DNA of 64,000 nt from Gemmatimonadaceae bacterium (GTDB lineage Bacteria; Gemmatimonadota; Gemmatimonadetes; Gemmatimonadales; Gemmatimonadaceae). The translations under genes and the position numbers were made by a program. The number at the start of each line of letters is the position of its first letter. Within the stretch, counting starts at the first letter, position 1. Under the pieces are notes generated by a model, which worked only from the letters and a program-made list of their open reading frames with translations, searched no databases and was not told where the DNA came from. Positions 10,510-60,259 of this stretch are shown here, in pieces. Where the stretch lies: positions 62,001 through 126,000 of the forward strand of contig JAIEMN010000032.1 of the NCBI GenBank assembly GCA_019752115.1, written 5' to 3'.

Positions 10510-10572
10510 AGCCCGAGCTCGAATACCGGTGGCAGAGGCTTGATCTCGCACGGAGGCACGGCGACGCGCTCC

Positions 10573-11019: not shown

Positions 11020-11036
11020 GCGTCGAGGCTGAAGGA

Positions 11037-43903: not shown

Positions 43904-44112
43904 CACAACCCTCTCAATATGAGCGGCCTCTGCGGTCACAGCTAGAGAGATTCCCGCTGTGCAACGATGCCCCGGCGCGCGTAGCGCTCGTGCGCGACCA
44001 GACGAGGCGCACCCGGCAGCGCGGTTCTTCGGCGTATGTCCGACTTGGATTGAAGTTTTCCGATCTACTGGGAAACTGACTTTCCTTCACCATGGCGACA
44101 GCACGACACGAG

Positions 44113-44142
44113 GTGAGCCCCGGAGATCTCTCCGGGGCTCAC
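44113..44142. terminator. Palindromic hairpin GTGAGCCCCGGAGA
   Basis: A perfect 14-base-pair stem around TC. It stands free of any gene by more than 250 bases on both sides. It may be a terminator left from a lost gene. Confidence 0.5.
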
Positions 44143-44326
44143 TTCGTTGCTGCGGCGCCGGCGCCGACTCTAGGCCCGCGCGACTACTCGCGCCGCTTCC
44201 GTGGCTTCTGCGCCCGCGCAGTCGCCCCGCCGTGCCCCCGGCGCGGCGCTGGTGCTGGTGCTGCCCCCGCTCCTCTACCTCGTCTATTCCGTCGGTCGAG
44301 GTGAGCCGGTTAAGGAGGTTTAGGAG

Positions 44327-44348
44327 GTTTAGGAAGGCCATCCTAAAC
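44327..44348 (-). terminator. Terminator-like inverted repeat after the transposition operon
   Basis: GTTTAGGA and TCCTAAAC form a perfect 8-base stem around AGGCCA. It follows two direct copies of AGGAGGTTT, and lies about 45 bases past the stop of the 611-residue gene on the minus strand. Confidence 0.5.
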
Positions 44349-44390
44349 TCTCCACAACTTGCTGCAAGTGCTCTCTGCGCTCCCCGCGTG

Positions 44391-46226
44391 CTACCCCACC
44401 GCTGCCGGGAGGAGCCCGCCGCCGATCAGCCGCGCCGCCTCGGTCGCGGTCCTGCGCGCCTCTGCACTCTTCGCCCCTTGGATCACGCGGAGCACGGTGC
44501 CAGTCAGCCGCGCACGATCCGCCTGGCAGAGCACGAGTGACAGCAGATAGGCCGCGGTGTCCATCTCGTCGGCGGGGTCGGGCACCGCCTCCTCATAGCT
44601 GACCTCTTCGCCAAGCAGCGCGAGCGCAAGGATCAACGGGCGTCGACCATCCGACCGCGCGAGGGGGATCGCCGACAAGCACGCGCGGATCAGCGGCGCA
44701 TCGCGAAGCACGTGCCCCAGCAGTACCCGAGCGCCATGCAGAAGGCTGATCGCCCGCGGCGGGCTGACGGCGTCCATGATCCCCGCCATCGCGTCCACAC
44801 GGTCGACCAGCAGCCAACCCAGGCCTTCGCGCTCGGCGGGGATGAGCGAGCCGTTCTGGCGGTTCTGCGCCCATCGCGCATCTGGATTCGGTACGCGGCG
44901 CGCGCGGCTGTAGAACATCCGCAAGCTCTCCTCCCCGGCGTACGCGCGTCCGAGCAGCCGCGGCACCGCCGCCGCATACGGGTGCAGCTGTCGATGGGAG
45001 ACCACGGCCGCCTCGCCGACGATCCGCACACTCGGACGCTCACCGGGGGCGGCGACGCTGATCGTGCGCAGAGCGCTGAGTTCGCGGTTCAGTTCCGCCA
45101 TGGGCGCGAGCTTACCACTTCGGGCGTTCACGTGAGCCTGACCTGCCCACTGCATCAAGACGGCGTTACTTCGCTGGAGCAGCCCGATGGCCTCCTCGAG
45201 AACGTCAGACTGCGCGACCGGCCGAAGGAGCGCCGACAACAACACCTCCCGCGTCGCGATCAGCTGATGAAGCTCTGGCAAGCCGAGACGCATCGCGATG
45301 CTGCGCGCGACCACGAGGGTTTCCAGCTCGGCGGACGGGCGAAGCAGCCGAAGACGATCCTCAAGCGCCATCGCTTCGTGCATCACGTTTGAGACCTCAC
45401 CGAGCGTGTATCGCTCGGGCGCCCCACCGGGTACGGTGTGGGGGTTGCGCAGAACACGCCACGTACCGCGCCCCTGCACCAGGCGCGATGTGCGCTGTGT
45501 ACTCAACTGCTCCAAGCCGCGGCCGAGGCAGCCGGTCGTGCGGACAAACGCTGCGGCCGGTGCACTGGTGGCATGCGTGGCCACCCAGAGCGCGGTCTCC
45601 ACGCGCGAGACCGGCCGCCCCAGCGCCGCCTCGGTTCGGCGTACGGCCTCCATGACGCCCTCGGCCTGGCTGACGGGCATCCGTTGATCCGGCGCCGGTG
45701 CGGCCGCCGGGCGCCAGAGCGTGCGTCGGCGTCCGTCGAGCGTGGTGACGGCGCGCGCAGCCAGCCGCGGCGCGCGCCAGGCTGGCGCGCCACGGGTGGA
45801 GGGGCGCGTGAGCGCGTCAAGGATCAAGCGATAGTTGCGCGGGTCGGGCAGCTGTACGCCGAGCGCGCGCATGCCCTCGGTGATGAGCGAGGTTGGCGCC
45901 TCCGTACCCGTCTCGGTCCAGTGGCGTTCGACGACCGCCACTGCGGCTGCCATCGGTTCGCCCGGCGGTACGGCATCGACGGGGTGCTCCCGGTGCGCGT
46001 ATCGTCCATGCGGCGGGCGGCCGTAGACGTACAGGAGCACCCCGCTCGTGCAGAGTTGTGCGACGACGAGCGCCACGTCGAACGGGGATTCGTCCGGGTA
46101 TCGCCGACGGAGTTCCTCTTCCACCTCCGACGGGTGCACGGCCACGCCACGTGAACGGGTCAGTTCCAACACGAGGGTGGCCACACGCGACCGGCGGCTC
46201 ACCGTCCCACTGGCCACTCCCGGCAT
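44391..46226 (-). CDS. Unrecognised third protein of the transposition operon (611 aa)
   Basis: 611 residues, mostly helical, with no membrane segment. Residues 10-75 look like a winged helix-turn-helix (VATLVLELTRSRGVAVHPSE, then a wing at SGVLLYVYGRPPHGRYAHRE). No CxxC zinc fingers are seen, so it is not an ordinary TniQ/TnsD protein. The rest shows helical repeats but no motif. Its ATG overlaps the stop of the TnsC-like gene (TAATG), so the two are made together. By position it would be the target-choosing or accessory factor of the element. This role is an inference. Confidence 0.7.
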   Translation of the reverse strand: MPGVASGTVSRRSRVATLVLELTRSRGVAVHPSEVEEELRRRYPDESPFDVALVVAQLCTSGVLLYVYGRPPHGRYAHREHPVDAVPPGEPMAAAVAVVERHWTETGTEAPTSLITEGMRALGVQLPDPRNYRLILDALTRPSTRGAPAWRAPRLAARAVTTLDGRRRTLWRPAAAPAPDQRMPVSQAEGVMEAVRRTEAALGRPVSRVETALWVATHATSAPAAAFVRTTGCLGRGLEQLSTQRTSRLVQGRGTWRVLRNPHTVPGGAPERYTLGEVSNVMHEAMALEDRLRLLRPSAELETLVVARSIAMRLGLPELHQLIATREVLLSALLRPVAQSDVLEEAIGLLQRSNAVLMQWAGQAHVNARSGKLAPMAELNRELSALRTISVAAPGERPSVRIVGEAAVVSHRQLHPYAAAVPRLLGRAYAGEESLRMFYSRARRVPNPDARWAQNRQNGSLIPAEREGLGWLLVDRVDAMAGIMDAVSPPRAISLLHGARVLLGHVLRDAPLIRACLSAIPLARSDGRRPLILALALLGEEVSYEEAVPDPADEMDTAAYLLSLVLCQADRARLTGTVLRVIQGAKSAEARRTATEAARLIGGGLLPAAVG

Positions 46227-47146
46227 TACGCCGCCGCGCCGTCAGCCGGTCGATGCCACAGACGCTCGAACAGCTGCGCCGAGAACGGCGCCTCCGTCCG
46301 CGGCACCCGCGGGCCCATGCCGCGCACCGCTTCCAGGTACAGCTGCGCGTGGCGGATCAGGCGGCCGACGGGCAACGGCTGTCCGCCCGTGACGACGGTG
46401 TCGATGTAGAGGCGCCAGCGCGGCATAGTCAACACATCGACGTGCTCCTTCCATCGCGGGAACCACGTGAGATAGATGTCGGGCGCCAGCGCGGGCGGCA
46501 CGAGCCCGATCTCCTCGATCAGGGGCCACCGGTGTCCGCGTTCGGCATGCTGATCCACGATCCGACGGAACGAGGGGGCTCCAACGGCGAGCACGCCGAC
46601 GCCGCGCTCCATTCCACCGGCCTCGGTCCCTCCTTTCCGCCGATCCGCGAGTGCGGCTTCGGTGATGACATCGCGAATGACGGTCATACCGGCATCGGTG
46701 ATGTACTCCCCCTCCTCGACGAGCAGCGCCACCACGTTCTGCTCGAGGCAGGTGGAGACGATCTCGCTCAGCAGTTGCGCGTCCGTCTTGCGCCCACCAC
46801 GCATGCGCATGTGCGGGGGCGCACCACGCAGCGCCGTCAGGATTGCGATCAGACAGTCGCGTTCACTGTGCGCCTTCAGTCGCCCGACGAGCACGATGCG
46901 CTGGGGCACGTGTCCCGGGGTCGCGAGTTGCTGCTGGAGCTGCTCTGCATCCCATTCGTCGATGACGCGCTCCAAGCTGAACGTCTTGCCGGCGCTCTTC
47001 TGGGCCACCACCGCAATCGCGGCACGGCTGGAGATCGCGAGTTCCAACATCTTCCGCATGAGGGTCTTCGCGTCCACCGCCGGGATGATCGGGAAGCCGC
47101 CGTCCCGTTCGGTGTCTTCGTTCAGAGTAGGCATCGTCGTTGTCAT
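46226..47146 (-). CDS. TnsC/TniB-like AAA+ transposition ATPase
   Basis: 306 residues. Walker A is AQKSAGKT with Lys54, in the [AG]xxxxGKT form. The Walker B region reads NVVALLVEEGEYI, so a Glu takes the place of the usual Asp. Sensor regions follow (VGVLAVGAPSF). TnsC-type proteins bind DNA as ATP-driven filaments and carry the target signal to the transposase. Position between the TnsB-like transposase and a third factor matches Tn7 and Tn5053 operons. The gap to the transposase gene is 61 bases. Confidence 0.8.
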   Translation of the reverse strand: MTTTMPTLNEDTERDGGFPIIPAVDAKTLMRKMLELAISSRAAIAVVAQKSAGKTFSLERVIDEWDAEQLQQQLATPGHVPQRIVLVGRLKAHSERDCLIAILTALRGAPPHMRMRGGRKTDAQLLSEIVSTCLEQNVVALLVEEGEYITDAGMTVIRDVITEAALADRRKGGTEAGGMERGVGVLAVGAPSFRRIVDQHAERGHRWPLIEEIGLVPPALAPDIYLTWFPRWKEHVDVLTMPRWRLYIDTVVTGGQPLPVGRLIRHAQLYLEAVRGMGPRVPRTEAPFSAQLFERLWHRPADGAAA

Positions 47147-47207
47147 GGGGGTGCTCGGGTTCGGGGGTTCAGGGGTTCAGGGGGTCAGGTGCTGCAGGGC
47201 ATGGCGA

Positions 47208-49367
47208 TCATCCAGACCGACGCTGCTCCAGGTCCTCGATGGGCAGCGCCGGGCTCGGATACGGGACCGCGGGTGGCGTGGTTGCCGCACTGAGGCCTGC
47301 GAGCCAGAAGGAGCCGCCCTCGACGGCATCGGCGCGCGGGGGTGCGGCCGCTGCCCCGTCACCGGGGATCAGCGCGAGCAGTGAGGCGAAGGCGGGCGTC
47401 GGCGCACTCACCGTGGTGGTCGCCTGCCGCAGTGCTTCGTCCAAGAGGGGCGTCAGCTGCGCCCCGGACACGTACATCGATTCCGGGATCGCGTCAGCGG
47501 CGCGCACCGCCGCCGCGGGGGGATCGCCGTCCCGTGTGTCGCGCGCGGGGCGCGCTCCCAGCCACACGTCCTCTGGCCGCAGTGGTGTCGTGACCGCGGC
47601 GGCGATGAGCGATGTCAGATCAACGGTCCCGGCGACGCCCTCAGGGCTGGGCGCTCGCCGAGCGGCTGGATCAGCGGCGATGTTCTGGTCCGCGGCGGCT
47701 CGCGTCTCGGCCGCCCGTTCAACCCCCAGACGTTGGTCCATCAGCGCGTGGATCGCGCGCTGGGCCCGTTCGCTCAGGCCGCCGGTCATCTCGGCGCGGG
47801 CGCGGGCGATGTAGTGCCCGTCGCGGCTGGCTGACGCGTCTCGAAGACCGGGGACGTGCACCAGCGCTCGTCCGCTATCCTCGACCGCCCACAGACAGGT
47901 GGCCAGCGGGTGTACATGGGCGGTCACCGTGGCCCCCACGGGCACGATGCGCCCACGGATCCGATGGTCGAAGGCGACCAACCGGTTGTCGCGCTGCATC
48001 TGCAGGCTCCCCTTGGTCGATGTCAGCGTGACCACCGGCAGGGCCCGGAGCAATGCGTCGCTCGGCGTGAGCAGGCTGGCGCGCGGCCGCTGCGCCATGA
48101 AGGCGTCATACGGCGTGGTGCCGTGCGCGGAGTGTCGCCGCTCGAAGTTGTAGTGCTCGATGAGCTTCGGAAGGATGATGCGGTCGACGTCCTCCACCCG
48201 GGGGAGATCCTCCGGGAGAATCTCGATCTTTCGAGCGGGCCGGTCCGTCGTGGCGGCCGCCTCGACACGCGCCTCGTGGGGGTTCTGGCGGAGGCGATCC
48301 GTGGGGATGTGCGTCTGCACGTGACCGGGAATTCCCGCGAAGAAGGCGTCGAATTCCTCCTTCACCGTGAAGCCGCAGCGCTCCTGGCTGCCGTTTCGAT
48401 AAGGTCGGTACGCCGACAGGATGTGGATGGCGGACGGGATGTGGGGCTGGACCGCCTTCGACCACGCCCGGTGGGTGACGTGACCATCCAACCGAATGTG
48501 CTTCGGCAGAAACCCGGTAAAGGGGCGCATGAAGGCGGGCGCGATGTCGGGTTGCGACGCGCGCAGGAAGACCGTCGCGACGTCATGCTCGTCGAACCCG
48601 GTGACGACCACTTCGCCCTGCGCCCCGCGTCGACGCCGTGGATCGCACACCTGCCACGCGAGGATCGCTCGGCTGACGTAGTCGAGAACCAAGGCGACGT
48701 AGAGCAGCGTGGAGACCCACCGACGCTGCTGCTCGTGCCAGAGCCCCACCCAGAGCGGGAACACCAGTTCGTCCTCTGTCCAGCAGTCGTGGGGTCGGTC
48801 GTACGGCAGCGTGTCGTGCGGCACCGCGTCGACCTCGGCCGCCCGGCGACCGTGGCCCCCCGCCGAACGCCCCAAGACGCCGCCTCGCGCCTCTTCGATG
48901 ATTCGGCGCAACGCCCACTCTCCGGGGAGATCGACGGCACAGCGCACGGCCGCCTGCGCCAGCAGCTTGATCGCTTTGCCGGTCTCGAGACGCGGATTGA
49001 CGGCCAAGGCGTCGTCGAGGACGTCCATCAGAGCATCGTCCAGCTTCGCGCGTGGACGGCCACCGCCGTGCTGGATCAGGTAGTAGGCGGGGTCCGTGCG
49101 CGCCTGGTCCGGCCCATTGCGATAGATCTCGGCGAGGGCGCAGATCGTCGGCCGGGTGGGCACCCAGCCGTCCAAGGTGGCGTGGATCTTTCGCACCGCA
49201 CGCACCATGTCGCACGGCCGAGGGCCGGCTTCGGCGGCGACCCGCGCGACCTCAAACCGGCGACGCGCGGTCAGCGACCGCTGCACCTCAGCGGAGGCGA
49301 GCCGTTTCCGATGACTCGGCGGGGTGCGCGCCTCAGGTTTTGCTGGACGGTCGTGGAACTGGGACAT
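47208..49367 (-). CDS. TnsB/TniA-like DDE transposase
   Basis: 719 residues. An N-terminal helix-turn-helix DNA-binding part (about residues 1-170) is followed by an RNase H-fold integrase core. Candidate catalytic residues are D199 (TEDEL), D294 (LDG) and E329 (GSQER). The last two are exactly 35 apart, the DD(35)E spacing of retroviral-type integrases. A Mu-type beta-barrel region follows at about residues 430-520 (VGATVTAHVHPLATCLWAVE), and the Pro/Ala-rich C-terminus would contact the ATPase. No TnsA-like endonuclease gene is seen, so the element may copy itself by cointegrates as Tn5053 does. Confidence 0.85.
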   Translation of the reverse strand: MSQFHDRPAKPEARTPPSHRKRLASAEVQRSLTARRRFEVARVAAEAGPRPCDMVRAVRKIHATLDGWVPTRPTICALAEIYRNGPDQARTDPAYYLIQHGGGRPRAKLDDALMDVLDDALAVNPRLETGKAIKLLAQAAVRCAVDLPGEWALRRIIEEARGGVLGRSAGGHGRRAAEVDAVPHDTLPYDRPHDCWTEDELVFPLWVGLWHEQQRRWVSTLLYVALVLDYVSRAILAWQVCDPRRRRGAQGEVVVTGFDEHDVATVFLRASQPDIAPAFMRPFTGFLPKHIRLDGHVTHRAWSKAVQPHIPSAIHILSAYRPYRNGSQERCGFTVKEEFDAFFAGIPGHVQTHIPTDRLRQNPHEARVEAAATTDRPARKIEILPEDLPRVEDVDRIILPKLIEHYNFERRHSAHGTTPYDAFMAQRPRASLLTPSDALLRALPVVTLTSTKGSLQMQRDNRLVAFDHRIRGRIVPVGATVTAHVHPLATCLWAVEDSGRALVHVPGLRDASASRDGHYIARARAEMTGGLSERAQRAIHALMDQRLGVERAAETRAAADQNIAADPAARRAPSPEGVAGTVDLTSLIAAAVTTPLRPEDVWLGARPARDTRDGDPPAAAVRAADAIPESMYVSGAQLTPLLDEALRQATTTVSAPTPAFASLLALIPGDGAAAAPPRADAVEGGSFWLAGLSAATTPPAVPYPSPALPIEDLEQRRSG

Positions 49368-49455
49368 GGCTCGTTCACTCGCGGCGCCCGCGATTCACCT
49401 GCAGGCGAGCAGGCTTCACCGGGCTTCTGAGCCGCAGCGTAGAGCGTGATGGGCA

Positions 49456-49489
49456 CGCGCCAAGGGCAGCCTGCCCTAGTTTTGGCGCG
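49456..49489. repeat. Nested inverted repeat upstream of tnsB-like gene
   Basis: CGCGCCAA (49456-49463) pairs with TTGGCGCG (49482-49489), and GGGCAG pairs with CTGCCC inside. It lies about 90 bases before the transposase start, where a promoter operator or end-binding site would be expected. Confidence 0.55.
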
Positions 49490-49774
49490 CGAGAAGGCGC
49501 CTGCGCGGCACGGCGGAATCGAGAGCGGGCGGACACGGGCAACCTCGGGGGGGGAGGCCAAACGCGGTCACTCGGCGCGACCAACGTGAACGTCGACCAA
49601 CACGGTTCGCTCACCGTCCCCTCGAGACCCACCACCCCGGCCGGACCAGAGCCCGGCAGGCGCCCGCGAACGGACGCCCGCGCGTGGGCCGACCTCGGGG
49701 GGGCAGCCCAGCGTGGATCACGGTGTCGTGGCCCCGACACCGCCGTTGCTGGCGGCGCGGCAAACGAGCACGCG

Positions 49775-49796
49775 GTTCGGGTGGACATACCCGAAC
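49775..49796. repeat. Inverted repeat GTTCGGGT-6-ACCCGAAC
   Basis: Perfect 8-base arms at 49775-49782 and 49789-49796, in non-coding DNA between the transposase and a small gene. It could be a protein-binding site. Confidence 0.45.
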
Positions 49797-49921
49797 AGAA
49801 GCCGAAGTACGCCAGCCCGGAGACGGCCGTCAAGCGGACTCTTCGGTGCGCGTTCGGTGTTGGGAGAGCGGGGGTGCCGCGAGGTTTCTCGCGTGACCCT
49901 GCACGCTTCGGCCGCGATCCT

Positions 49922-50131
49922 ATGAGCGGCTCGCCTCGAAAGCACCTGCGCCGGGCCGATGAGGCGCTCCGGCAGGCGCTGGACACGGCCTCGCGCTACC
50001 CGGAGGCCCGCGCGGAGCTCGTCGCCCAGCTTGGCGAGGAGCGCCTCGCGCAGCTGGAGCGGGCGGCCGCCATCGTGCGGGCGGCGGTGGACGCGCTGGA
50101 GGGCCCGGCGGACGGGAGCCGCGACCGCTGA
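49922..50131 (+). CDS. Small helical hypothetical protein (69 aa)
   Basis: The sequence MSGSPRKHLRRADEALRQAL leads into a second helix (AELVAQLGEERLAQLERAAA). It looks like a genuine helix-turn-helix-like or coiled-coil small protein. It is convergent with the XRE gene 27 bases away. No family recognised. Confidence 0.45.
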   Translation: MSGSPRKHLRRADEALRQALDTASRYPEARAELVAQLGEERLAQLERAAAIVRAAVDALEGPADGSRDR

Positions 50132-50158
50132 GCCTCCGTGGCCAGCGGTACCAGGGGC

Positions 50159-50719
50159 CTACTCGTCGGCGTCGCCGATGGCCGCGCGCACGGCGCGGAC
50201 GCGTTGGGTCTCACGCGGACTTCTGAGCGAGGCCCGCAGCCGACCGTTCCGGGCGTCCTCCCGTTCGGCGGCGAGCTGCGTTGCCGTGACGCCCTGCCGC
50301 GTTCTGGCCCGCTGGACGTCGCGCACCACCGCGTCCATCCCATTCCGCTCCTCGGCGGTCGGCGGTCCCACGATCAGGCTGGCGTCGACCTCGAGGCCGG
50401 CGGCGATGTGGTGCGCCTCGAAGATGGTGAGCGCGCGATTGCCCCGCTCAATCTTCGCCAGCCAGCTCTGGCTGAAGCCCAACCGCCTCGCCAGCTCCAG
50501 CTGGGAGAACTGCTGCGGGCTCTCGGGCGCACGCGCGCGGCCCGTCGGCACGAACGCGAGGCTGGCGGCGCGCGCACGCTCTCGCCGCGCCTCTCGCAGC
50601 GCCTGAATGCGGCGACCGACCAACCAGTCCCAGGCCTTGGCCTCGTCCGCCAGCTTGAGCCACTGCACGACGCGACGGACCTCGTTCGGGTCCGGCCCCG
50701 CCCGCGCCCCCTTGCCCAC
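50159..50719 (-). CDS. XRE-family helix-turn-helix regulator
   Basis: 186 residues. The central HTH is LELARRLGFSQSWLAKIERG (about residues 73-92), typical of Cro/C1 proteins. The flanks are long, Arg-rich helices; they lack a recognised effector domain. It starts at GTG 50719 and is divergent from the RuvC-like/kinase pair, so it may control that pair. Confidence 0.82.
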   Translation of the reverse strand: MGKGARAGPDPNEVRRVVQWLKLADEAKAWDWLVGRRIQALREARRERARAASLAFVPTGRARAPESPQQFSQLELARRLGFSQSWLAKIERGNRALTIFEAHHIAAGLEVDASLIVGPPTAEERNGMDAVVRDVQRARTRQGVTATQLAAEREDARNGRLRASLRSPRETQRVRAVRAAIGDADE

Positions 50720-50895
50720 GCGAGTCCTCCGTTGAGGGATCGTGGGGAGGATCGAGTCGATTTTGGACTATTCCGAATTGGACTTGCCGACGTCCTCGGC
50801 GCCGCGGTGGGCGACGATGGCGAGCAGCGGCGACTACTTTGCTTGTTGATCCAATCTCCGTTGAGCGACGTTTCTGACTTTCATCTTTGCTGCGC

Positions 50896-51447
50896 ATGAT
50901 TGCCCTCGGTCTTCGTGCCCACCCCAAGCACGTCACCTTCGCGGTCGTTGCCAACCCCGAGGCGCCTGTGCTGCAGGCGCTGTCCACGGTGATCCTTCCC
51001 GCCGCCCTGCACGCCCCCGAACAGCTGTTCTTCGTGCGCACGACGCTCCTCGATCTCATCCGGGAGTACCACGTGACCAGCGCCGGGGTGCGGACGACCG
51101 AGCCGATGGCGAAGAGTCCCAACCTCCTGCGGCTGAACATCGAAGGCGTAGTCCAAGAGCTGCTCGGCGCGGGCGCCGTCCCGCGCTACTTCGCCGGTCC
51201 GCTCGCCACCATCGGCCGCTACCTCGGTGTGTCCACCAAGGAGGCGAAGCGCTTCGCCACCGGCGAGGCGCGCGTCGACAGCGTGGAGGGGTGGGCGGAG
51301 CGGTATGACGACGAGCAGCGCGAGGCGATTTTGGCGGCCCTGGCCGCCCTGCGTATCCCACGCTCGCGACTGTCAATGATGACCGATGATGCGCCGGTCG
51401 CTTTGTCGGCAGGTCCTGCCGATCTCGAGGTTCCGCATGCTGATTGA
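50896..51447 (+). CDS. Hypothetical protein, possible RuvC/RNase H fold
   Basis: 183 residues from ATG 50896. The layout suggests the RuvC fold: a first strand (MIALGLRAHPKHVTFAVV), a helix, LLDLIREYHVTSAGVRTTE with E69, then LRLNIEGVVQELLGAGAVPR with E83, and a last helix containing ATIGRYLG. RuvC resolvases have Asp in the first strand, which is absent here, so it may not be an active nuclease. The stop overlaps the kinase start by 11 bases, so the two are coupled. The fold is an inference from pattern only. Confidence 0.6.
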   Translation: MIALGLRAHPKHVTFAVVANPEAPVLQALSTVILPAALHAPEQLFFVRTTLLDLIREYHVTSAGVRTTEPMAKSPNLLRLNIEGVVQELLGAGAVPRYFAGPLATIGRYLGVSTKEAKRFATGEARVDSVEGWAERYDDEQREAILAALAALRIPRSRLSMMTDDAPVALSAGPADLEVPHAD

Positions 51448-52495
51448 GACGGCCGTTCGGTTCGAGCGCCTCCAGAACCTCGACCTGCAAGGCGCCAATT
51501 CGCAGGTCTTCCTGGCCCGGGACCATCAACTGCAGGCGACGCTCGTCGTCAAGGAGATCGAGAAGGCGAAGATCGACGCGGCGCGCTACTTCGACGAGGC
51601 GGCGAAACTCTACGCCGCGCGGCACCCCAATGTGGTCGACGTGCTTTACGCATCGTCCACGGACACGCATGTGTACATCGCGATGCCGCAGTACGCGTGC
51701 TCGATTGAGGCGCTGCTGCGCGACCGCCCGCTGACCGTCCGCGAGGTGGTGCGCGTGGGGATCGGATTCTTGACCGGCCTGCACCACATCCACGTCAAGA
51801 AGCTGGTGCATTTCGACATCAAGCCGTCGAACGTGCTGCTCGACACGGCCGGAAACGCGTCGTTGTCCGACTTTGGCCTGTGCCAGGCGGTCGACGCGGC
51901 GGGATTGGCCACCCCGGCGCAGGTGTACGAGTCCCACGTCGCGCCGGAGTACCTGGTAGCGTCGACCAGCCTGTCGACGGCCGCCGACATCTACCAAGCC
52001 GGACTGACCCTCTACCGGATGTGCACCGGCACGGCGCTCTGGCAGGCCCACCTCAACCAGGTAATCGCTGCGCTGGGGGCGGATCGGTGGCTGGAGGCGG
52101 TGGCTCTCGGGGCATTTCCGTCACGCGACCTGATTCCCCCGCACATCCCGAATCGGCTGCGGGCGGTCATCATGCGCGCGATCCAGCCCAACCCCGACGA
52201 CCGCTTCGGGAGCGTGTTGGAGATGATGAACGAGTTGGCCCAGGTCGACGAGGCGCTCGACTGGCAGTTCACGCCGATGGCGGAGGACCTCCGGTGGGAG
52301 TTGACCACCGACGCACAACGGTGGACGGTCGAACTCAAGGGGAACGGTCCCCTTGCCGACATCATTGCGAGACGGGAGAATCTGGCCACCGGCAAAGTGA
52401 CAGACTTTCCTTCCCTGAGTCACGCCGGCGTGAAGGGCGCCAAGGTGGTCAAGTATGTGCAGGCGGCGATCCGGGAGTTCACGCCCAGTTCCTGA
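51437..52495 (+). CDS. Serine/threonine protein kinase
   Basis: 352 residues. A eukaryotic-type kinase domain covers residues 8-265. The Gly-rich loop is LQGANSQVFLA, the ATP lysine is K39 in VVKEI, and the catalytic loop is HFDIKPSNVLL with D127 (HFD instead of HRD). The metal-binding Asp is D145 in SDFGL, and an APE-like motif (VAPEYL) follows. The C-terminal 80 residues are a separate small domain. No transmembrane segment or sensor is present. It overlaps the RuvC-like gene, and a phosphoesterase gene of the calcineurin type lies downstream on the other strand. Confidence 0.88.
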   Translation: MLIETAVRFERLQNLDLQGANSQVFLARDHQLQATLVVKEIEKAKIDAARYFDEAAKLYAARHPNVVDVLYASSTDTHVYIAMPQYACSIEALLRDRPLTVREVVRVGIGFLTGLHHIHVKKLVHFDIKPSNVLLDTAGNASLSDFGLCQAVDAAGLATPAQVYESHVAPEYLVASTSLSTAADIYQAGLTLYRMCTGTALWQAHLNQVIAALGADRWLEAVALGAFPSRDLIPPHIPNRLRAVIMRAIQPNPDDRFGSVLEMMNELAQVDEALDWQFTPMAEDLRWELTTDAQRWTVELKGNGPLADIIARRENLATGKVTDFPSLSHAGVKGAKVVKYVQAAIREFTPSS

Positions 52496-52577
52496 TCCGC
52501 CCGCAGTCGGTTGACTTTGTCCGTACAAACACCGAAGATCGAGGTGGCGCCGTCCGGCGCCCAGACGAGAGGTCCCA

Positions 52578-52811
52578 ATGCGAAAAAACACGGCTGGACC
52601 GCAGGGAAGGCCGTCGGGGACGTCGGTGCGCTTGGACGTGGCATCCCCCCTGGTCACCCGTGAGAGCCAGGTGCCGGGGCACGGTGTGCCTCACGATGAG
52701 AAGCTGCGGAAGTCGGGGGCCGCCGACGTGCGCGGAAATGCTGTGGTGGAGCGCGCCGGCGGCGGCTTCATCCGCGTGCTGCCCAAGGACGCGTCGAAGC
52801 GTCACGGGTGA
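52578..52811 (+). CDS. Small hypothetical protein (77 aa)
   Basis: It starts at ATG 52578 after GAGAGG. It is Gly/Arg-rich with a final basic GGGFIRVLPKDASKRHG. The position 82 bases after the kinase suggests the same transcript. No family recognised; it could be non-coding. Confidence 0.4.
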   Translation: MRKNTAGPQGRPSGTSVRLDVASPLVTRESQVPGHGVPHDEKLRKSGAADVRGNAVVERAGGGFIRVLPKDASKRHG

Positions 52812-52859
52812 TCGCTGCGACGTGTGGGCGGGGGGGCCCCTGTTTCCGTCGCGTGCCCG

Positions 52860-53483
52860 TCAGCGGTAGACCCAGTCGAACCGATCTAGCACCACCACGC
52901 GCCCTGCATCGATCCGGCGATGCATGTGGCCGCAGACGAGTTCTGGTCGACCCAAGTGGTCCCAAACGTCTTGGACGATCCCTGCTGAGACTGACGGGGT
53001 TCCGCCGTGCTCGGCGATCACGTCAGCCGGGGGCGTGTGCGTGATCAGAAGGTCGATGTCGCCCGCTTGGAGGGCGAGGAGCGGGGCGGCGTCGGCCCGG
53101 CGGATCGCCTCCTCCTCCGGCCACCAATCCTCACCCGGTACCCAGTACGGGGCGATGTGGTGCGTCTCGGCCCCACCGAGAAAGGCGACCCGGCGACCTG
53201 CGAGGTGCAACACCGTACCCCGGGGGCAGTAGCTGAGCCCTGGGGCGATTTCGGTCGGCGCCGTGAGCCCGCGGGTCGAAGGGAAGTGGTGATGGTTGCC
53301 GTCGATGAAGTAGACGTGACGGGCCAGCCGACGCCATCGCGCCGAGGGCGGGGTACCCGGTGCTCCGCTGAGATACAGGTCGCCGACCTGCACCACGACG
53401 GTGACCTCCGGGGGAAGCTGCTGCTCGACGATCCAGGCGAGGCCGTCAATGTCTTGGTGGATGTCGCCAACGATTGCGAGCAT
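52860..53483 (-). CDS. Calcineurin-like metallophosphoesterase
   Basis: 207 residues with the five family motifs: GDIHQ, GDLY, GNHHH, THTPP and GHMHR. These hold the Asp, Asn and His ligands of the two metals. It hydrolyses phosphate mono- or diesters, with substrates ranging from nucleotides to phosphoproteins. It is the only phosphatase-like gene near the kinase. Its start is close to the repeated operator-like sites at 53527-53609. Confidence 0.9.
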   Translation of the reverse strand: MLAIVGDIHQDIDGLAWIVEQQLPPEVTVVVQVGDLYLSGAPGTPPSARWRRLARHVYFIDGNHHHFPSTRGLTAPTEIAPGLSYCPRGTVLHLAGRRVAFLGGAETHHIAPYWVPGEDWWPEEEAIRRADAAPLLALQAGDIDLLITHTPPADVIAEHGGTPSVSAGIVQDVWDHLGRPELVCGHMHRRIDAGRVVVLDRFDWVYR

Positions 53484-53526
53484 GCGGTGCGGTTTGGGCG
53501 TTGGGCCGCAGGGAGGTTGTCGAAAA

Positions 53527-53609
53527 GGTATAGTGTACTATACACGAAGTGTACTACACCACCCTTGAGGTATACTACACTATCTCTCAGGTATAGTGTA
53601 GTATACACT
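53527..53609. promoter_or_regulatory. AT-rich operator-like array between divergent genes
   Basis: Four related sites share the core TAGTGTA(C/G)TATAC. Site 1 is GGTATAGTGTACTATACAC at 53527-53545, and site 4 (53590-53609) matches it except for one central base. Site 2 (53547-53560) is partial, and site 3 (53569-53584) is in reverse. The sites contain inner dyads. The array lies in very GC-poor DNA between the phosphoesterase (minus) and nucleotidyltransferase (plus) genes. Confidence 0.7.
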
Positions 53610-53679
53610 CAGGCGTAGGGATCCGCGTGATCCCCTGTCGCCGCGTCGCTTTCTCGCCCCTTGCCCTCGCCTCCTGAGT

Positions 53680-54372
53680 ATGCGCCCCCCGGCTCGAAGC
53701 TTTCTCCGAACCCCCCTCGACCACGTGCTGGGCACGGTCGCGGCCGTGCGGGTCCTGCGGAGCCTCGTCGCGAGTGACGCGCCGACCACGCAGAGCACGC
53801 TCATGCGTGAAACGCATCTGACCCGGAAGTCGGTGCGTCACACCGTGGATCATCTCGTCTCGGCCGGCGTGCTCCAGCTGGTCGGCGACCCTGGAGCCCA
53901 CCTGTACGCTCTGGAAACCTCCCATCCGCTGGTCCCGGCCATCCAGACCCTTTTCGCGGCGGAGCGGTCGCGACTCCCCCAGCTCTCCGAAGCGATCCGG
54001 GCGCTCGCGGCGGAGCACGTGCCGCCGGTGATGGGCGCGTGGCTGTATGGCAGCGTGGCGCGGGGTGACGACGACCTCACGAGCGACCTCGACCTCGCGC
54101 TGGTGGTAGACACCGCGGAAGCCAATGCCGCGACGGAAGCCCTACGGCGCGACCTGCACCGACTGGGCGACGCGCAGCATGTCCCGATCAACGTGATCGC
54201 CTTCAGTCCCGCGGAACTGCTCGCGCTTCCTGACATCAACCCTGGGTTCTGGGACAATCTCCGGGAGGACGCTCGCGTGCTGCACGGCAGTGATCCAGAC
54301 AGCGTTGCGCTTCGCCTTCGGCGCGTGCTGAAGGCCGAGGCGACGACGACGACGGAGGCGGACCATGGTTAG
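53680..54372 (+). CDS. Winged-helix nucleotidyltransferase (MNT-like)
   Basis: 230 residues. The first 90 residues contain a winged helix-turn-helix (MRETHLTRKSVRHTVDHLVS). A minimal nucleotidyltransferase follows: G124-S125 in YGSVARGDDDLTSDLDLALV, which gives the GSxxRG and DxD catalytic site. MNT proteins paired with HEPN proteins act as antitoxins, some by adding AMP to the toxin. Its DNA-binding part may bind the operator array just upstream. It overlaps the next gene by 8 bases. Confidence 0.85.
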   Translation: MRPPARSFLRTPLDHVLGTVAAVRVLRSLVASDAPTTQSTLMRETHLTRKSVRHTVDHLVSAGVLQLVGDPGAHLYALETSHPLVPAIQTLFAAERSRLPQLSEAIRALAAEHVPPVMGAWLYGSVARGDDDLTSDLDLALVVDTAEANAATEALRRDLHRLGDAQHVPINVIAFSPAELLALPDINPGFWDNLREDARVLHGSDPDSVALRLRRVLKAEATTTTEADHG

Positions 54373-54784
54373 ACAGGGGAAGGTCGCCATCGCGGATGGG
54401 CAGGCGTGGGGCTCCCGGCGGCAGGACGCGCAAGCCTTCCGAAAGGCCGCCGAGACCCTCGAAGCCGTGGCCGAAGAGGGCCAGAACTGCAACCCCATCA
54501 TCGTGCTCATCATCCATGCCGCCATAGCGTACGGTGACGCGCTGACCGCCCGCTTCGGTGGGACGGTGAACCGCGGAAATCACGATGACTTATGGCGTCG
54601 GGTGAAGCAGGCCATGAAGGGACGTGCCGACGAGCCCCAGATCTCCCGGCTTAAAGATCTGCTCGGCAACAAAACCGCCTACTCGTACGGCGCCAAGATC
54701 GGTCGGCTCAACGATATGCGGGAGATGCTCAAGCAGCTGAAGCGCTTTGAGCTGTGGGCCGAGGAGCAGCTCACGAGCGGGTAG
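54365..54784 (+). CDS. HEPN-like helical protein, partner of the nucleotidyltransferase
   Basis: 139 residues, all helical. The core helix NPIIVLIIHAAIAYGDALTA resembles HEPN proteins. A histidine follows in NRGNHDDLW, but the usual R-x4-6-H RNase motif is not clear. The position directly after, and overlapping, an MNT-type gene makes a toxin-antitoxin role likely. Whether this one is an active RNase cannot be told. Confidence 0.72.
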   Translation: MVRQGKVAIADGQAWGSRRQDAQAFRKAAETLEAVAEEGQNCNPIIVLIIHAAIAYGDALTARFGGTVNRGNHDDLWRRVKQAMKGRADEPQISRLKDLLGNKTAYSYGAKIGRLNDMREMLKQLKRFELWAEEQLTSG

Positions 54785-54888
54785 GCGCATTGCGCACCAC
54801 CCGCAAGCGTTCGTCGCACCGGCCACTCCCGCCGAGCCCACGGCTGAGGGTAGGGTGATGTCGTCCTCTCCTCAGCGTCTCGCTCACG

Positions 54889-55119
54889 ATGACCTTCGCC
54901 CGCCGCGCGGTTTCCCGTTCCCTCAGCCCGCATGACCGGAACGCGTCGGAGCCGGACACACCGAGCGGGCGCCTACGTTGCGCGCAACGCCAGACGTATT
55001 GGGAACTCCACGCGCGCGTGCTCCTTGGCCAGGCATTGACGGAGGCGGAGCAGCATGAGTTCGTGAAGCTCTCGCCCCTCGTGCGCGGCGGCTGCGCGCT
55101 CTGCGAACCGGCACGCTGA
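54889..55119 (+). CDS. Small cysteine-containing hypothetical protein (76 aa)
   Basis: The C-terminal half reads as protein (RQTYWELHARVLLGQALTEA) and ends with CALC. A third cysteine lies at LRCAQ. It is weakly supported. Confidence 0.35.
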   Translation: MTFARRAVSRSLSPHDRNASEPDTPSGRLRCAQRQTYWELHARVLLGQALTEAEQHEFVKLSPLVRGGCALCEPAR

Positions 55120-55146
55120 ACGATACGACGGCCGCGATTCTTGTTT

Positions 55147-55389
55147 TCAACGCGAGCGGGTCGGGCCGGCGGCGGCGTCCACCGATTTGAGGTAGGCGCG
55201 ACACCATGCCTGGAGTAGCCGGAGACCAGCGGCTTCGGCCGCGGCGATGCTCGTGGTCTTTGAGACCTCGACGGTGATCTGCTGCGGCGCGATGCCGTCG
55301 CCCGAGATCTCGCACATGACCTGATGGCCGGTGAACGTGCTCGTGGACTTCTCGGAAACCCGGATGACACGCGCGCGGGCGGTGAACAT
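55147..55389 (-). CDS. Small hypothetical protein (80 aa)
   Basis: The pattern is beta then helix: ARVIRVSEKSTSTFTGHQVM, QQITVEVSKTTSIAAAEAAG, then LRLLQAWCRAYLKSV. It resembles a small compact domain. It is oriented away from the restriction-modification gene. Family unknown. Confidence 0.55.
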   Translation of the reverse strand: MFTARARVIRVSEKSTSTFTGHQVMCEISGDGIAPQQITVEVSKTTSIAAAEAAGLRLLQAWCRAYLKSVDAAAGPTRSR

Positions 55390-55602
55390 GTGATCTGCCA
55401 GTGAAGGGGCGGAGAGTGCGCCGGCCGGAGAGCCGCTCGACCCTCCAACCGAACGAGATCTTGAACGTTGTGCACGGTAAGAGAAGCTTGCCCCTCGCGC
55501 ACCGTCAGGCCCACGCCGTACCTTGCCACGCGTTCATGAAGCCCCCGAGCCTGATCGCGGCCGTAGGGGCGTCGCCGTCCCGCCCGAGGTGCTGTGTCCA
55601 CA

Positions 55603-58600
55603 ATGCCCGCCCCAATGGCCGCCGTCGCCCCCGAGGTGGCCCTCCGCGCCCTGCGCGACCGCTGGGCCGCCACCAAGGCCGCCGAGCGGGCGAACGCCCA
55701 GTCGTACATCCGCGAACTGTGTGAGGCGTTGGGCGTGCCCGCCCCGATGCCCGCCGGCAGCGGCTACGAGTTCGAGCTCCCGATCAAGCTGGTGACGCGG
55801 GACGGGACCGAGGCGCAGGGCTTCGTGGACTGCTACAAGGCCGGGCACTTCATGCTCGAGGCCAAGGACGTCGACGGCGGGGCATCGGATGTGGCGTTGC
55901 GCCGGGCCTACGGCCAGGCGCGCCAGTACGCCGCCCACGACCCGTCGGGCACCGCCCCGCCGTACCTGCTCGTGCTGGACGTGGCGAAGACGCTGCTGGT
56001 CTACCACCGCTGGGGCGGGACGTACCAAGGCTTCGCGGCCGGCCACCGCATCGATCTGGCCACGCTCGATCAGCGCCGGACCGACATCGAGCTGCTGCGC
56101 GACATCTGGACGGCCCCGGAGAAGCGCGACCCCCGGCAGCACGCGCAGGCCGTGACCAACGACATCGCCGGAAAGCTGGCTACCCTCGCCGCCTCCCTCG
56201 AGGCGCGCGGCTTCGCGTCCGAGCGTGTCGCGAAGTTCCTGATGCGGGTGGTGTTCTCGTGCTTCGCCGAAGACGTCGATCTGCTCCCCCGCGAGGCCTT
56301 CCGGCAGACGGTGCAGCGCGCCGGCGTGGAGGGCGACCCGGTCAAGTTCCAGCGCGCGCTCGAGACCCTGTGGCGCGCCATGGACGAGGGCGGGATGTTC
56401 GGGTTCGAGAGCCTGCTGCGGTTCAACGGGCACTTCTTCAAGGACGCGGAGGCGCTCCCTCTCGAACGCGCCGACATCGCGCTCGTCCTGGAGGCGGCGA
56501 AAGCCGACTGGAAGGACGTCGAGCCGACGATCTTCGGGACCCTGCTGACGCGCGCGCTCGACCCCGTGGAGCGCCACCGCCTGGGCGCGGAGTACACCCC
56601 CCGCGCCTTCATCGAGCGCCTGGTGCGCCCCACCGTCGAGGAGCCCGTGCGCGAGCGCTGGACGGCCGTGCAGGCCGCCGTGCTGCAGCTGCGCGAGTCC
56701 GGGAAGGCCAAGGATCGCGCCACGGCCGAACAGCGCCTGCGCGACTTCCTCGGGTGGATGCAGGGCTTGCGCGTCCTCGACCCCGCCTGTGGATCGGGCA
56801 ACTTCCTCTACGTCACCATGCACGTGCTCAAGGACATTGAGTACGAGGTGGTGCGGGAGCTCGAGGCCCTGACCGGCCACCAGGAGCTCCGTATACAGGA
56901 GATCGGCCCCGCCAACTTCCTCGGCATCGAGGTGAAGCGCTGGGCCCGTGAGGTGGCCGAGCTGACGCTCTGGATCGGCTACCACCAGTTCTGGAAGCGG
57001 CGACACGCTGTCCAGCCGCCGGAGCCGGTCCTGCAGGATACAGGCACGCTGGAGCTCCGGGACGCCGTGCTCGTTTGGGATCGACTAGAGCGCGTGCCCG
57101 AAAAGGACCGCCCCGACCCCACCCCGCGTCTGGTCCATCCCGTCTCCGGCGAGCTCGTGCCCGACCCCGCAGCTCGCCTCGAGTACACGGCCTACGTGGG
57201 CGCCCGCGAAGCGGAGTGGCCCGCCGCCGACTTCATCGTCTCGAACCCACCGTTCCTTGGGCAGTTCCGCCAGCGAGAGGCGCTTGGGGACGGCTACGTC
57301 GAAGCGCTGCGGGCTGCGTATCCGGATGTACCGGATGCCGCAGACTTGGTGATGTACTGGGTCCGCCACGCCATGCGCGCGGTGGCGGAGGGGCAGGCCC
57401 TGCGCGCGGGGCTCATCACCACGCAGTCGGTGACGCAGGTGCAGAACCGGCGTGTGCTGGAGGCGGCGGCGGCGCTCGGCGTCCGCCCGTGCTGGGCCAT
57501 CGCCGATCACTACTGGAACGACAGCCACGAGGACGCACGCGTGCGTGTCGCCATGGTGGTGTTCGCGAAGGAGCCGACGAGTGCGACGCTCGTGACAGTG
57601 GACGGCGAGGCGGCGGTGACTGCCACCCATCGGGTACCGCGACTCAACGCGGACCTGACAGCGCATGCAGATGTCGCATCTGCATCTGGGCGCCCGCTGC
57701 GCTCGAATTTCGGATTGTCCACACGTGGATTTATGCTTGCCGGCGCCGGCTTCGTGCTCGAGAAGCATGAGGGTTCGCTTCTGCGAGCGCAGCCCGAACA
57801 TGATCGGGTGGTAAAGCCGTTCCGGAATGGAAAGGATCTCACCACACGTCCGCGAGAGGTCTTCGTCATTGATTTCGCCGGCAGGGTCGAGGCGGATGCC
57901 AGGACGTTCCCCGTCCTGTTCGACATTGTTCGAGATCGGGTCAAGCCGGAGCGCGACGCCAACAAGGATCAGGCACGCCGCTTGAACTGGTGGAACTTCG
58001 GACGGGCCAACGATCAGTTGCGCGCGGCACTCCGGGCCTTGCCGCGTTACATCGGAACTCCGGAGACAGCCAAGCACAGATTCTTCGTCTTCCTCGACGG
58101 CGAGGTGGCGCCCGACAACTCGGTGGTGTGCATCGGCTCCGCCGATGCCTTCCACCTTGGCGTACTGTCGTCTGCCATTCATGGCGCGTGGGCACTGGCG
58201 GCCGGCAGCCGCCTCGGGATCGACGGCACCCCGCGGTACAACAAGGGGCCGTGCTTCGAGGCGTTCCCATTCCCGGACCCCTCGCCCGCGCTCCGCAGCC
58301 GCATTGCGGACTGCGCGGAGCGGCTTGACCGACACCGGAAAGACGCGCTCGCGCGCAGTGAAAAGGTCGGGATGACGGTGATGTACAACGTCGTGGATCA
58401 GCTCCGCGCCGGCGCCGCGTTGTCGAAGTTGGAGCACGAGGTGCATCGGCTTGCCGCGTGCGGCACGCTGCGCGACCTGCACGACGAGCTCGACGCACTC
58501 GTCGCCGAGGCCTATGGCTGGTCGTGGCCCGAGCCCCCCGCACTGATCCTCGAGCGCCTCGTCGCGCTCCACGACCGTCGGGTCGAGGAAGAGGCGGCCG

Positions 58601-58944
58601 GCAGCGTGCGGTGGCTGCGCCCCGACTACCAGATGCCGCGATTCGGACGCGCCGACGAGGCGGCGGCCGCCGCGCCGACGCTCGGCATTCCGGCGGAGAC
58701 GCCTTCAGCGAAACCGTCGACCGCCTCGGCCGCGGCCACCCCGTGGCCATCCGACGCCGTCGGCCAGATCACGGTCCTGCGGTCCATGGCGGCCACGACC
58801 CCGGTCTCCATCGAGGAGGCCGTGCAGCGCCTCGTCGGCGCCAAACGCGAGATCGTGGGCCGACACCTCGAGACACTGGCTATGCTCGGTGAGGTGCGCG
58901 ACGTGGGCGGCGGGCGGTACGCGGTGGCGGCTGGCAATGCGTAG
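55603..58944 (+). CDS. Single-chain type IIG/IIL-like restriction-modification protein (MmeI-like)
   Basis: About 1113 residues. The N-terminal domain has a PD-(D/E)xK-like nuclease site (D76, then E86-A-K88 in HFMLEAKD). The middle holds a gamma-type adenine methyltransferase: motif I at D393 (LDPACGSGNF) and motif IV at N548 (SNPPF). The C-terminal part is a target-recognition region with a final winged-helix-like segment (EEAVQRLVGAKREIVGRHLE). Such enzymes methylate and cut DNA in one chain. The frame extends to GTG 55594; ATG 55603 is chosen, with GAGG upstream. No separate specificity or nuclease gene is seen. Confidence 0.87.
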   Translation: MPAPMAAVAPEVALRALRDRWAATKAAERANAQSYIRELCEALGVPAPMPAGSGYEFELPIKLVTRDGTEAQGFVDCYKAGHFMLEAKDVDGGASDVALRRAYGQARQYAAHDPSGTAPPYLLVLDVAKTLLVYHRWGGTYQGFAAGHRIDLATLDQRRTDIELLRDIWTAPEKRDPRQHAQAVTNDIAGKLATLAASLEARGFASERVAKFLMRVVFSCFAEDVDLLPREAFRQTVQRAGVEGDPVKFQRALETLWRAMDEGGMFGFESLLRFNGHFFKDAEALPLERADIALVLEAAKADWKDVEPTIFGTLLTRALDPVERHRLGAEYTPRAFIERLVRPTVEEPVRERWTAVQAAVLQLRESGKAKDRATAEQRLRDFLGWMQGLRVLDPACGSGNFLYVTMHVLKDIEYEVVRELEALTGHQELRIQEIGPANFLGIEVKRWAREVAELTLWIGYHQFWKRRHAVQPPEPVLQDTGTLELRDAVLVWDRLERVPEKDRPDPTPRLVHPVSGELVPDPAARLEYTAYVGAREAEWPAADFIVSNPPFLGQFRQREALGDGYVEALRAAYPDVPDAADLVMYWVRHAMRAVAEGQALRAGLITTQSVTQVQNRRVLEAAAALGVRPCWAIADHYWNDSHEDARVRVAMVVFAKEPTSATLVTVDGEAAVTATHRVPRLNADLTAHADVASASGRPLRSNFGLSTRGFMLAGAGFVLEKHEGSLLRAQPEHDRVVKPFRNGKDLTTRPREVFVIDFAGRVEADARTFPVLFDIVRDRVKPERDANKDQARRLNWWNFGRANDQLRAALRALPRYIGTPETAKHRFFVFLDGEVAPDNSVVCIGSADAFHLGVLSSAIHGAWALAAGSRLGIDGTPRYNKGPCFEAFPFPDPSPALRSRIADCAERLDRHRKDALARSEKVGMTVMYNVVDQLRAGAALSKLEHEVHRLAACGTLRDLHDELDALVAEAYGWSWPEPPALILERLVALHDRRVEEEAAGSVRWLRPDYQMPRFGRADEAAAAAPTLGIPAETPSAKPSTASAAATPWPSDAVGQITVLRSMAATTPVSIEEAVQRLVGAKREIVGRHLETLAMLGEVRDVGGGRYAVAAGNA

Positions 58945-58956
58945 GTAGCGCCCGAC

Positions 58957-60111
58957 ATGCCGATGGTCGCCTTCTTCCCTTGGGCGGTTCAAGAAGAAAC
59001 GCTCGTCGTCGGCGAGTTCACCATCGCCCCGTTCGGCGCGGCGGTGCTCCTCATGCCACCAGGGCACGCCACAGCGGTGCGAGAGGTCGTCGCGGCCTAC
59101 GACAAAACAGACGACGACCTCATCGCCCGCGTGCCCATACTGTTCCGCACCGCCACGGGCCCCACGGACGACGTGGCCGACGAGGACGTGGGCGCGCTGT
59201 TTCTCGTCGGCGAGATGGTCGCGTGCGCTGCCCTCGCGTCGCGCCAGTTCTTCATGCACGCGTACTGGAATCGCGACTCCTTCCATTTCGTGGTCCAAGG
59301 GTTCCGGCCTGACCGACCTGGCGGCGCACTGATCACCTCTAGGCGTCGAGATGGCGCTGCGCCGAGCTATGTACCGGCGAAGCACTATCGGGTACCCCGC
59401 CCGTTTCACGTCGGGCAGGGCCGGATGGAGGACCTTGATCGACCGCTTCTCGATGCGCTCGTGGAGGCCCGGGACGATGCCCGAGTCGCCCAACTGCACG
59501 ACGCCGTGCGAGGGTTCAACGCAGCCAACACCGACAGCCCAACCATCAGCCAGGAGACGGAGCTTGTGCTCTTGGTTGGCGCGTACAGTCGGCTCTGCGA
59601 CGTATGGGACAAGGACGGCACCGCCGCAGCTGTCCGCGATCTGCTTGACAGGGCGCCGGCGTGGCCCGGCTCGATGCCGGGCACCAAATGGGAACACGCG
59701 CCTCTGAAAGACCGAATGGCGAAGAGCAGGAATCCGAGCAGGGTCTACGAGTGGATGGCAGACGCGTATCTCCTGCGCGGCCAGTTCGCTCACGGCCGCG
59801 GGCAGTCTCCGTACAAGGGGGCGTGGGGGCTGCGTGATCACCTGTTGCTGGGCACCTACCTCTTCCCGCTGGCGGTGAAGGCGTGGCTTGGCCGCAGCGG
59901 TCGATACACACTCAGCCCGACGGAGCTCATGCGGATTTCGGCCTTCGATGCGCTGTCCTCGTGCGATCACTTCGTCGGCGACGAGGGCGGCGGCGAGGGC
60001 GATGAGCACCGTCGGCCGTCAGACTTCCCGTGGGTGAGGGTGATCCAGTCGATCCCGATCCAACTGTTCGTCTCCGGGCTGATGCCGCCTGCCGCGCATC
60101 GAACTGAGTAG
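58957..60111 (+). CDS. HEPN-motif protein paired with the restriction-modification gene
   Basis: 384 residues. R274-G-Q-F-A-H279 fits the R-x4-H active-site motif of HEPN RNases, set in a helical C-terminal half. The N-terminal 200 residues are beta-rich (EETLVVGEFTIAPFGAAVLL). This two-part layout resembles HEPN proteins used in phage defence. It starts 12 bases after the restriction-modification stop, so they are one operon. Family not recognised by name. Confidence 0.65.
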   Translation: MPMVAFFPWAVQEETLVVGEFTIAPFGAAVLLMPPGHATAVREVVAAYDKTDDDLIARVPILFRTATGPTDDVADEDVGALFLVGEMVACAALASRQFFMHAYWNRDSFHFVVQGFRPDRPGGALITSRRRDGAAPSYVPAKHYRVPRPFHVGQGRMEDLDRPLLDALVEARDDARVAQLHDAVRGFNAANTDSPTISQETELVLLVGAYSRLCDVWDKDGTAAAVRDLLDRAPAWPGSMPGTKWEHAPLKDRMAKSRNPSRVYEWMADAYLLRGQFAHGRGQSPYKGAWGLRDHLLLGTYLFPLAVKAWLGRSGRYTLSPTELMRISAFDALSSCDHFVGDEGGGEGDEHRRPSDFPWVRVIQSIPIQLFVSGLMPPAAHRTE

Positions 60112-60142
60112 GCGCGCGCCACGGCCACCGCCTCGAACGACA

Positions 60143-60171
60143 AAGGGAGGCCCCACGGCGGGGCCTCCCTT
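60143..60171 (+). terminator. Terminator of the restriction-modification operon
   Basis: A perfect 12-base-pair stem (AAGGGAGGCCCC / GGGGCCTCCCTT) with a 5-base loop, 32 bases after the last stop. Confidence 0.75.
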
Positions 60172-60259
60172 CTGTGCTGATGGTGTCAAGGATCGGCAAG
60201 TCAGTTATCTGGCAAGCCGGTAAAGTCCAAACCAAGCCTGACACGGCGTACTAACAAAC

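Follow-up and report, generated by a model that had tools for sequence, protein, structure and literature searches.

A candidate target-selecting protein of non-TniQ type in a Tn7/Tn5053-related transposon from a Gemmatimonadaceae bacterium

The stretch of DNA analysed here, 64,000 nucleotides from a Gemmatimonadaceae bacterium (assembly GCA_019752115.1, contig JAIEMN010000032.1, positions 62,001 to 126,000; "the window" below), almost certainly holds at 44037-60243 a transposon in which the genes for a TnsB-like transposase and a TnsC-like ATPase are followed by a third gene of non-TniQ type. Judged by its sequence, the product of this third gene is not TniQ/TnsD, and its family is described by no library searched here. 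The third protein probably binds DNA and acts as partner of the TnsC-like ATPase in the slot of TniQ/TnsD, and it may represent a new way for transposons of the Tn7/Tn5053 class to choose insertion sites. The wider proposal, that in this lineage TniQ/TnsD has given way altogether to a target selector without homology to it, free of zinc and built with several winged helices, which contacts the ATPase directly, and that this class can hence do without TniQ as an adaptor, stands for us at about an even chance. If it is true, the TniQ hub would be replaceable, there would be a second, independent solution for handing target DNA to the ATPase, and programmable insertion tools would gain a new starting point.

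The operon lies on the minus strand, and its three open reading frames, of 719, 306 and 611 amino acids, are found where an earlier reading of the window (the original prediction) had placed them:

47208-49367, minus strand: transposase gene, encoding a TnsB/TniA-like DDE transposase of 719 amino acids with D199, D294 and E329 invariant and an hhalign match to R751 TniA
46226-47146, minus strand: ATPase gene, encoding a TnsC/TniB-like AAA ATPase of 306 amino acids with a PF13401 match and an hhalign match to R751 TniB
44391-46226, minus strand: third gene, encoding 611 amino acids of a family without a database name, with three predicted winged helix-turn-helix (wHTH) units and a helical, HEAT-like C terminus

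The order is thus transposase (49367-47208), ATPase (47146-46226) and third gene (46226-44391). The coding strand at 46226 reads TAATG, as had been predicted, so that the ATPase stop and the third-gene start overlap by one base, which couples translation of the third gene to that of the ATPase. The catalytic residues D199, D294 and E329, which are invariant among the first relatives aligned (alignment A5), bear out the predicted DDE transposase, but 34 residues separate D294 from E329 (33 to 74 in relatives), and the motif is therefore not a strict DD(35)E, being off by one. The transposase family aligns with R751 TniA (hhalign 45%, E 2e-4, 366 columns), and the transposase of locus L039 contains rve and Mu-transpos_C, both above the Pfam cut-off. 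The window ATPase matches AAA_22 (PF13401) with 27.9 bits, where the cut-off is 27, and among its relatives Pfam TniB (PF05621) is matched too (25.5, cut-off 22.4), with TniB above the cut-off in L038. In addition, the ATPase family aligns with R751 TniB (hhalign 86%), and a PDB profile search with the ATPase gives weak matches to ShTnsC and Tn7 TnsC. By these similarities the transposase is of the TnsB/TniA type and the ATPase of the TnsC/TniB type; the element is thus related through both proteins to Tn7/Tn5053, but its third protein does not read as TniQ/TnsD.

That the third protein is something other than TniQ/TnsD is indicated by several comparisons. It has zero matches to Pfam, NCBIfam, PADLOC and PHROG models at E up to 1, and no relatives of it were found by tblastn in plasmids or by a pattern scan of viral contigs. 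The absence of a CxxC motif, which the original prediction had noticed in the window protein, extends to the family (0/9 members). TniQ (PF06527) is above the cut-off in none of the seven genomes that carry the third gene, whereas plasmid R751, the positive control for this search, gives Pfam TniQ with E 1.6e-20. A match to TniQ/TnsD had been named beforehand as the outcome that would speak against a new family; it was looked for with Pfam, by profile-profile alignment and among PDB sequences, and was not found. The possibility that the protein is an extremely diverged TniQ/TnsD that has lost its zinc fingers and is visible by structure alone might be entertained on two grounds, namely that its operon position matches that of TniQ in R751, where the order is TniA-TniB-TniQ with a TniB/TniQ overlap, and that target selectors evolve fast (PMC10293859). 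However, the third family aligns with R751 TniQ at an hhalign value of 0.1% and with a five-member TniQ alignment at 0.2%, while its operon neighbours align with TniB and TniA; Pfam TniQ is silent on the third proteins scanned; and the PDB profile search returns no TniQ/TnsD, only weak matches to alphaRep/HEAT proteins. We regard such extreme divergence as improbable.

The fold predicted for the third protein points to DNA binding. The AlphaFold2 model, built from seven sequences (predicted local distance difference test score, pLDDT, 70; predicted template-modelling score, pTM, 0.64), contains three N-terminal helical units at residues 11-60, 91-173 and 187-274, with beta wings on the second and third, and continues with helices and then a helical repeat region. 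Residues 81-180 of the model superpose on known wHTH domains (VIA-align) with Z about 10 and a root-mean-square deviation of 2.3-4.2 over 72-85 aligned residues. This match supports the second unit as a winged helix, and the first and third are predicted wHTH units; the winged-helix-like N terminus of the original prediction is thereby upheld and extended to three predicted units. The C-terminal part, folded alone, has a pLDDT of 73 and a weak HEAT-like scaffold match (best Z 8.1 over 90 residues), for which the tool warns of a possible common arrangement, and this match agrees with the weak sequence matches to alphaRep/HEAT proteins. Overall, what Foldseek and VIA-align list for the N terminus is wHTH proteins, and for the C terminus weak matches to helical repeats. 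Foldseek with the whole protein gives nothing significant, and TniQ/TnsD is not in the lists, which proves nothing given a model of medium confidence. The most conserved stretch is a C-terminal core at residues 440-545, with 29% mean pairwise identity versus 17-23% elsewhere, as would be expected of a shared partner surface combined with variable DNA contacts.

The third gene is not peculiar to the window. The genome of the window has the transposase-ATPase-third gene order twice more, as copy a (L005 6080-10702) and copy b (L014 4736-9329) of contig C27, and complete operons were also found in L028 and L038, from the same genus, and in L039 and L044, from another family of the same class. The third cistron holds its position in all seven complete operons (window, L005, L014, L028, L038, L039 and L044; five genomes, two families), so that the linkage to transposase and ATPase anticipated for related genomes is borne out, and the ATPase stop overlaps the third-gene start in 6/7. 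The transposases of L039 and L044 have no significant similarity to that of the window (blastp E about 0.05), whereas the third proteins do (E 1e-5 and 2e-7), and the closest pairs agree for all three proteins (a-b and j-k are closest in each). Homology of the third proteins beyond the reach of transposase similarity, together with congruent relationships, argues for a component of transposition and not a passenger. A passenger, for example a defence component that sits in a convenient position and is unused in transposition, would fit the abundance of defence genes in the cargo of these elements, the remnant in L026 beside a TIR/short prokaryotic Argonaute (pAgo) pair, and the two loci (L006 and L027) that have a third gene without the transposase and ATPase genes. 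It is nevertheless very improbable in our view, because the third cistron is present throughout the complete loci, nearly always with the ATPase overlap, despite transposases that have diverged beyond significant blastp similarity, and because the three proteins are congruent and the third has no PADLOC match. The family is rare, being found in 5/179 genomes of the family Gemmatimonadaceae, 6/395 sampled in the phylum and 3/154 in the order of L039.

To locate the limits of the window element, every TG...CA pair near each operon was scanned without bias and scored for terminal repeats and target duplication:

44037-60243: whole transposon, 16,207 bp, the top TG...CA pair for terminal repeats and target duplication
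44030-44036: target-site duplication, left copy CGGCGTA, identical to the 7 bp at 60244-60250
60244-60250: target-site duplication, right copy CGGCGTA, adjoining the terminator downstream of pilC in a flank conserved in the genus
44037-44086, plus strand: left terminal inverted repeat, TGTCCGACTTGGATTGAAGTTTTCCGATC...AACTGACTTTCC, matching the inward-read right end at 34/50 positions
60194-60243, minus strand: right terminal inverted repeat, TGTCAGGCTTGGTTTGGACTTTACCGGC...AACTGACTTGCC, pairing with the left end
44108-44147: terminator-like inverted repeat just inside the left end, with 19-nt arms that are 95% complementary

The window element scores 35 versus 29 for the runner-up. Its inverted repeats, which begin with TGTC, are identical at 21/30 and 34/50 positions, and of 400,000 TG/CA pairs picked at random in the window not one reached the latter value. 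A terminator-like hairpin follows both ends, which also contain a second conserved block, and the transposition operon lies at one end of the element. Copies a and b share, downstream of their fourth gene (see below), a conserved 127-bp stretch (73%) with repeats spaced 21 bp, ending in ...CCGACA; a matching TGTCGG... end is present at C27:26488, and together they define element b as C27:26488-44048 (17,561 bp), with TGTC ends and a 6-bp duplication, GCCGAC. The unbiased scan also ranks element b first at its locus. Ends and target duplications show that this is a real mobile element. End searches did not find a left end for element a, and the TG...CA scan delimited no ends for the elements in L028, L038, L039 and L044. 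A conservation edge at window position 50786 was at one point considered as an element end and was dropped, the ends with target duplication being 44037 and 60243. Among the genes of the window element none was recognised as TnsA or a resolvase, several small open reading frames being without family, and the element contains no Rfam family or CRISPR-like array.

The insertions known so far all lie in gene-free spacers. The window element is inserted beside the terminator downstream of pilC; its left flank was not found in relatives, which keep the pilC side with the terminator. Element b forms a nested tandem insertion, a single base in from element a's terminal end (L005 11483-11489, L014 10048-10055; C27:26482-26488 and 44048-44055), and resident element ends may be targets. 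A third, partly delimited insertion lies 13-16 bp beyond the stop codon of a core gene that is present in 30/30 genomes of the genus.

Of the original prediction of a new kind of target selector, the part concerning a non-TniQ family in the TniQ/TnsD slot has held; target selection itself is what we infer from the operon position, the coupling to the ATPase, the DNA-binding fold and the absence of TniQ. A reasonable mechanism would be that the winged-helix N terminus reads and binds target DNA, that the better conserved C-terminal part contacts the TnsC-like ATPase and presents the target DNA to it, and that the ATPase, once loaded at the target, brings in and activates the transposase, itself bound to the ends at 44037 and 60243. 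The main rival is a transcriptional or transpososome regulator, which might for instance bind the ends or the promoter of the element itself and so repress or organise transposition. Several winged-helix units are indeed typical of transcription factors, and the target sites so far have no common motif. However, a separate gene of the XRE type with a helix-turn-helix (HTH), the usual kind of regulator, stands beside tnsB in at least five loci, the third gene is coupled to the ATPase as TniQ is in R751, and proteins of 560-700 amino acids with a large helical part are big for a repressor. A regulator is therefore unlikely, and a DNA-binding partner of the ATPase in the TniQ/TnsD slot is preferred.

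Several points weigh against this preferred role. No common att site is obvious among the two delimited insertions and the partly delimited one, which accordingly do not demonstrate site-specific selection. The confidence of the AlphaFold2 model, as given above, is moderate. In the window ATPase, alone among the seven compared, Walker A lacks its first G (AQKSAGKT) and the D of Walker B is replaced by E (LLVEEGE), so that this copy may be impaired, perhaps through poor ATP hydrolysis or decay. An intact third-type gene in L006 (9283-11307, 674 amino acids) has no recognisable transposase or ATPase adjoining it, and is either domesticated or served by partners that were not recognised. Finally, the third-type gene of L027 has no detectable ATPase gene or transposase gene of the operon type beside it, though it is apparently a decayed copy. 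The L027 gene (about 10185-12029) has an in-frame TAG, and an insertion sequence (IS) transposase gene adjoins it. With the ends, duplications and seven operons in hand, the target-selector question is testable now.

The window element can be compared with several known systems. With Tn5053/Tn402 (TniA-TniB-TniQ-TniR; R751) it shares a DDE transposase, an AAA ATPase and a coupled third gene, in that order, as well as ends of the TGT...ACA type and the profile matches of ATPase and transposase. It differs in a third protein unrelated to TniQ, in that no TniR-type resolvase was identified in the element, and in duplications of 6-7 bp, where those of Tn5053 are 5 bp. Tn552, IS21 and phage Mu likewise have a transposase/ATPase pair without TniQ, and Tn552 duplications are 6-7 bp, but none of the three is known to have a coupled third cistron of the present family. 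The element resembles Tn7 (TnsA-TnsB-TnsC-TnsD-TnsE) in its TnsB/TnsC logic, its module at one end, its large defence-rich cargo and its insertion in gene-free spacers, but has no recognisable TnsA, TnsD/TniQ or TnsE, and no attTn7-like site has been shown. A precedent for recruitment of an unrelated DNA-binding protein as target selector by a Tn7-like element is TnsF of Tn6022, a zinc-finger protein with a dead tyrosine recombinase that acts through TniQ (PMC10293859); here, by contrast, neither TniQ nor a recombinase is matched, and the new protein seems to stand in for TniQ itself. Since tnsD/tniQ is found in 73-97% of elements per clade (PMC8649781), elements without detected TniQ exist, and the third-gene family may account for some of them.

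The remainder of the element, from 50.2 to 60.1 kb, consists of the probable regulator and cargo, with defence-like genes such as that for a type IIG restriction enzyme:

50159-50719, minus strand: XRE-type HTH protein, probable regulator of the element (PF01381)
50763-50784, minus strand: AGTCCAATTCGGAATAGTCCAA, possible operator or end-like site, identical in L015, with DNA similarity stopping abruptly just beyond
51386-52495, plus strand: Ser/Thr protein kinase, cargo (PF00069, E 2e-34)
52860-53483, minus strand: metallophosphoesterase-like protein, cargo (PF12850, 25.1 bits, slightly under the cut-off)
53680-54372, plus strand: nucleotidyltransferase with wHTH, cargo (PF18765 above the cut-off; PADLOC PDC-M05A)
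54365-54784, plus strand: small partner of the nucleotidyltransferase, cargo, possibly HEPN-like (gene overlap; no Pfam match)
55594-58944, plus strand: type IIG (MmeI-like) restriction-methylation enzyme, cargo (four MmeI Pfam domains; PADLOC REase_MTase_IIG E=0)
58957-60111, plus strand: cargo protein of 384 amino acids without family (no match in family searches)

Tn7-like elements typically carry a cargo rich in defence genes (PMC8649781), and a homologue of the type IIG enzyme lies ~5 kb upstream of the L028 operon. A homologue of the XRE protein, 57% identical, stands beside tnsB in L015, and HTH matches are found upstream of tnsB in L005, L014 and L044. The 22-bp site at 50763-50784 is a direct-repeat motif upstream of the HTH gene that is identical in the 71% relative (L015 4658-4679), and it looks like the inner stretch of the right end of the element (TTGGACTTTACCGG).

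When genome contigs were scanned with the transposase alignment, a single close relative came out, in L015, recorded as a Gemmatimonadetes metagenome-assembled genome. It is shortened and fused to an IS21-type ATPase frame: at L015 6111-7589 the tnsB frame joins an IS21 IstB-like ATPase frame after residue 354, by recombination or as an assembly chimera. A fourth small gene of 177-180 amino acids follows the third gene in the two C27 copies only (L005 10709-11242, L014 9333-9875), and that of L005 has zero Pfam matches. In L026 (15202-19212) the C-terminal remnant of a third gene adjoins a TIR-domain protein and a class I short pAgo, a SPARTA-like pair. Finally, an 80-bp inverted repeat pair of 86% identity at L014 10798-10877 and 17611-17690 forms terminator-like hairpins that flank several genes outside the element.

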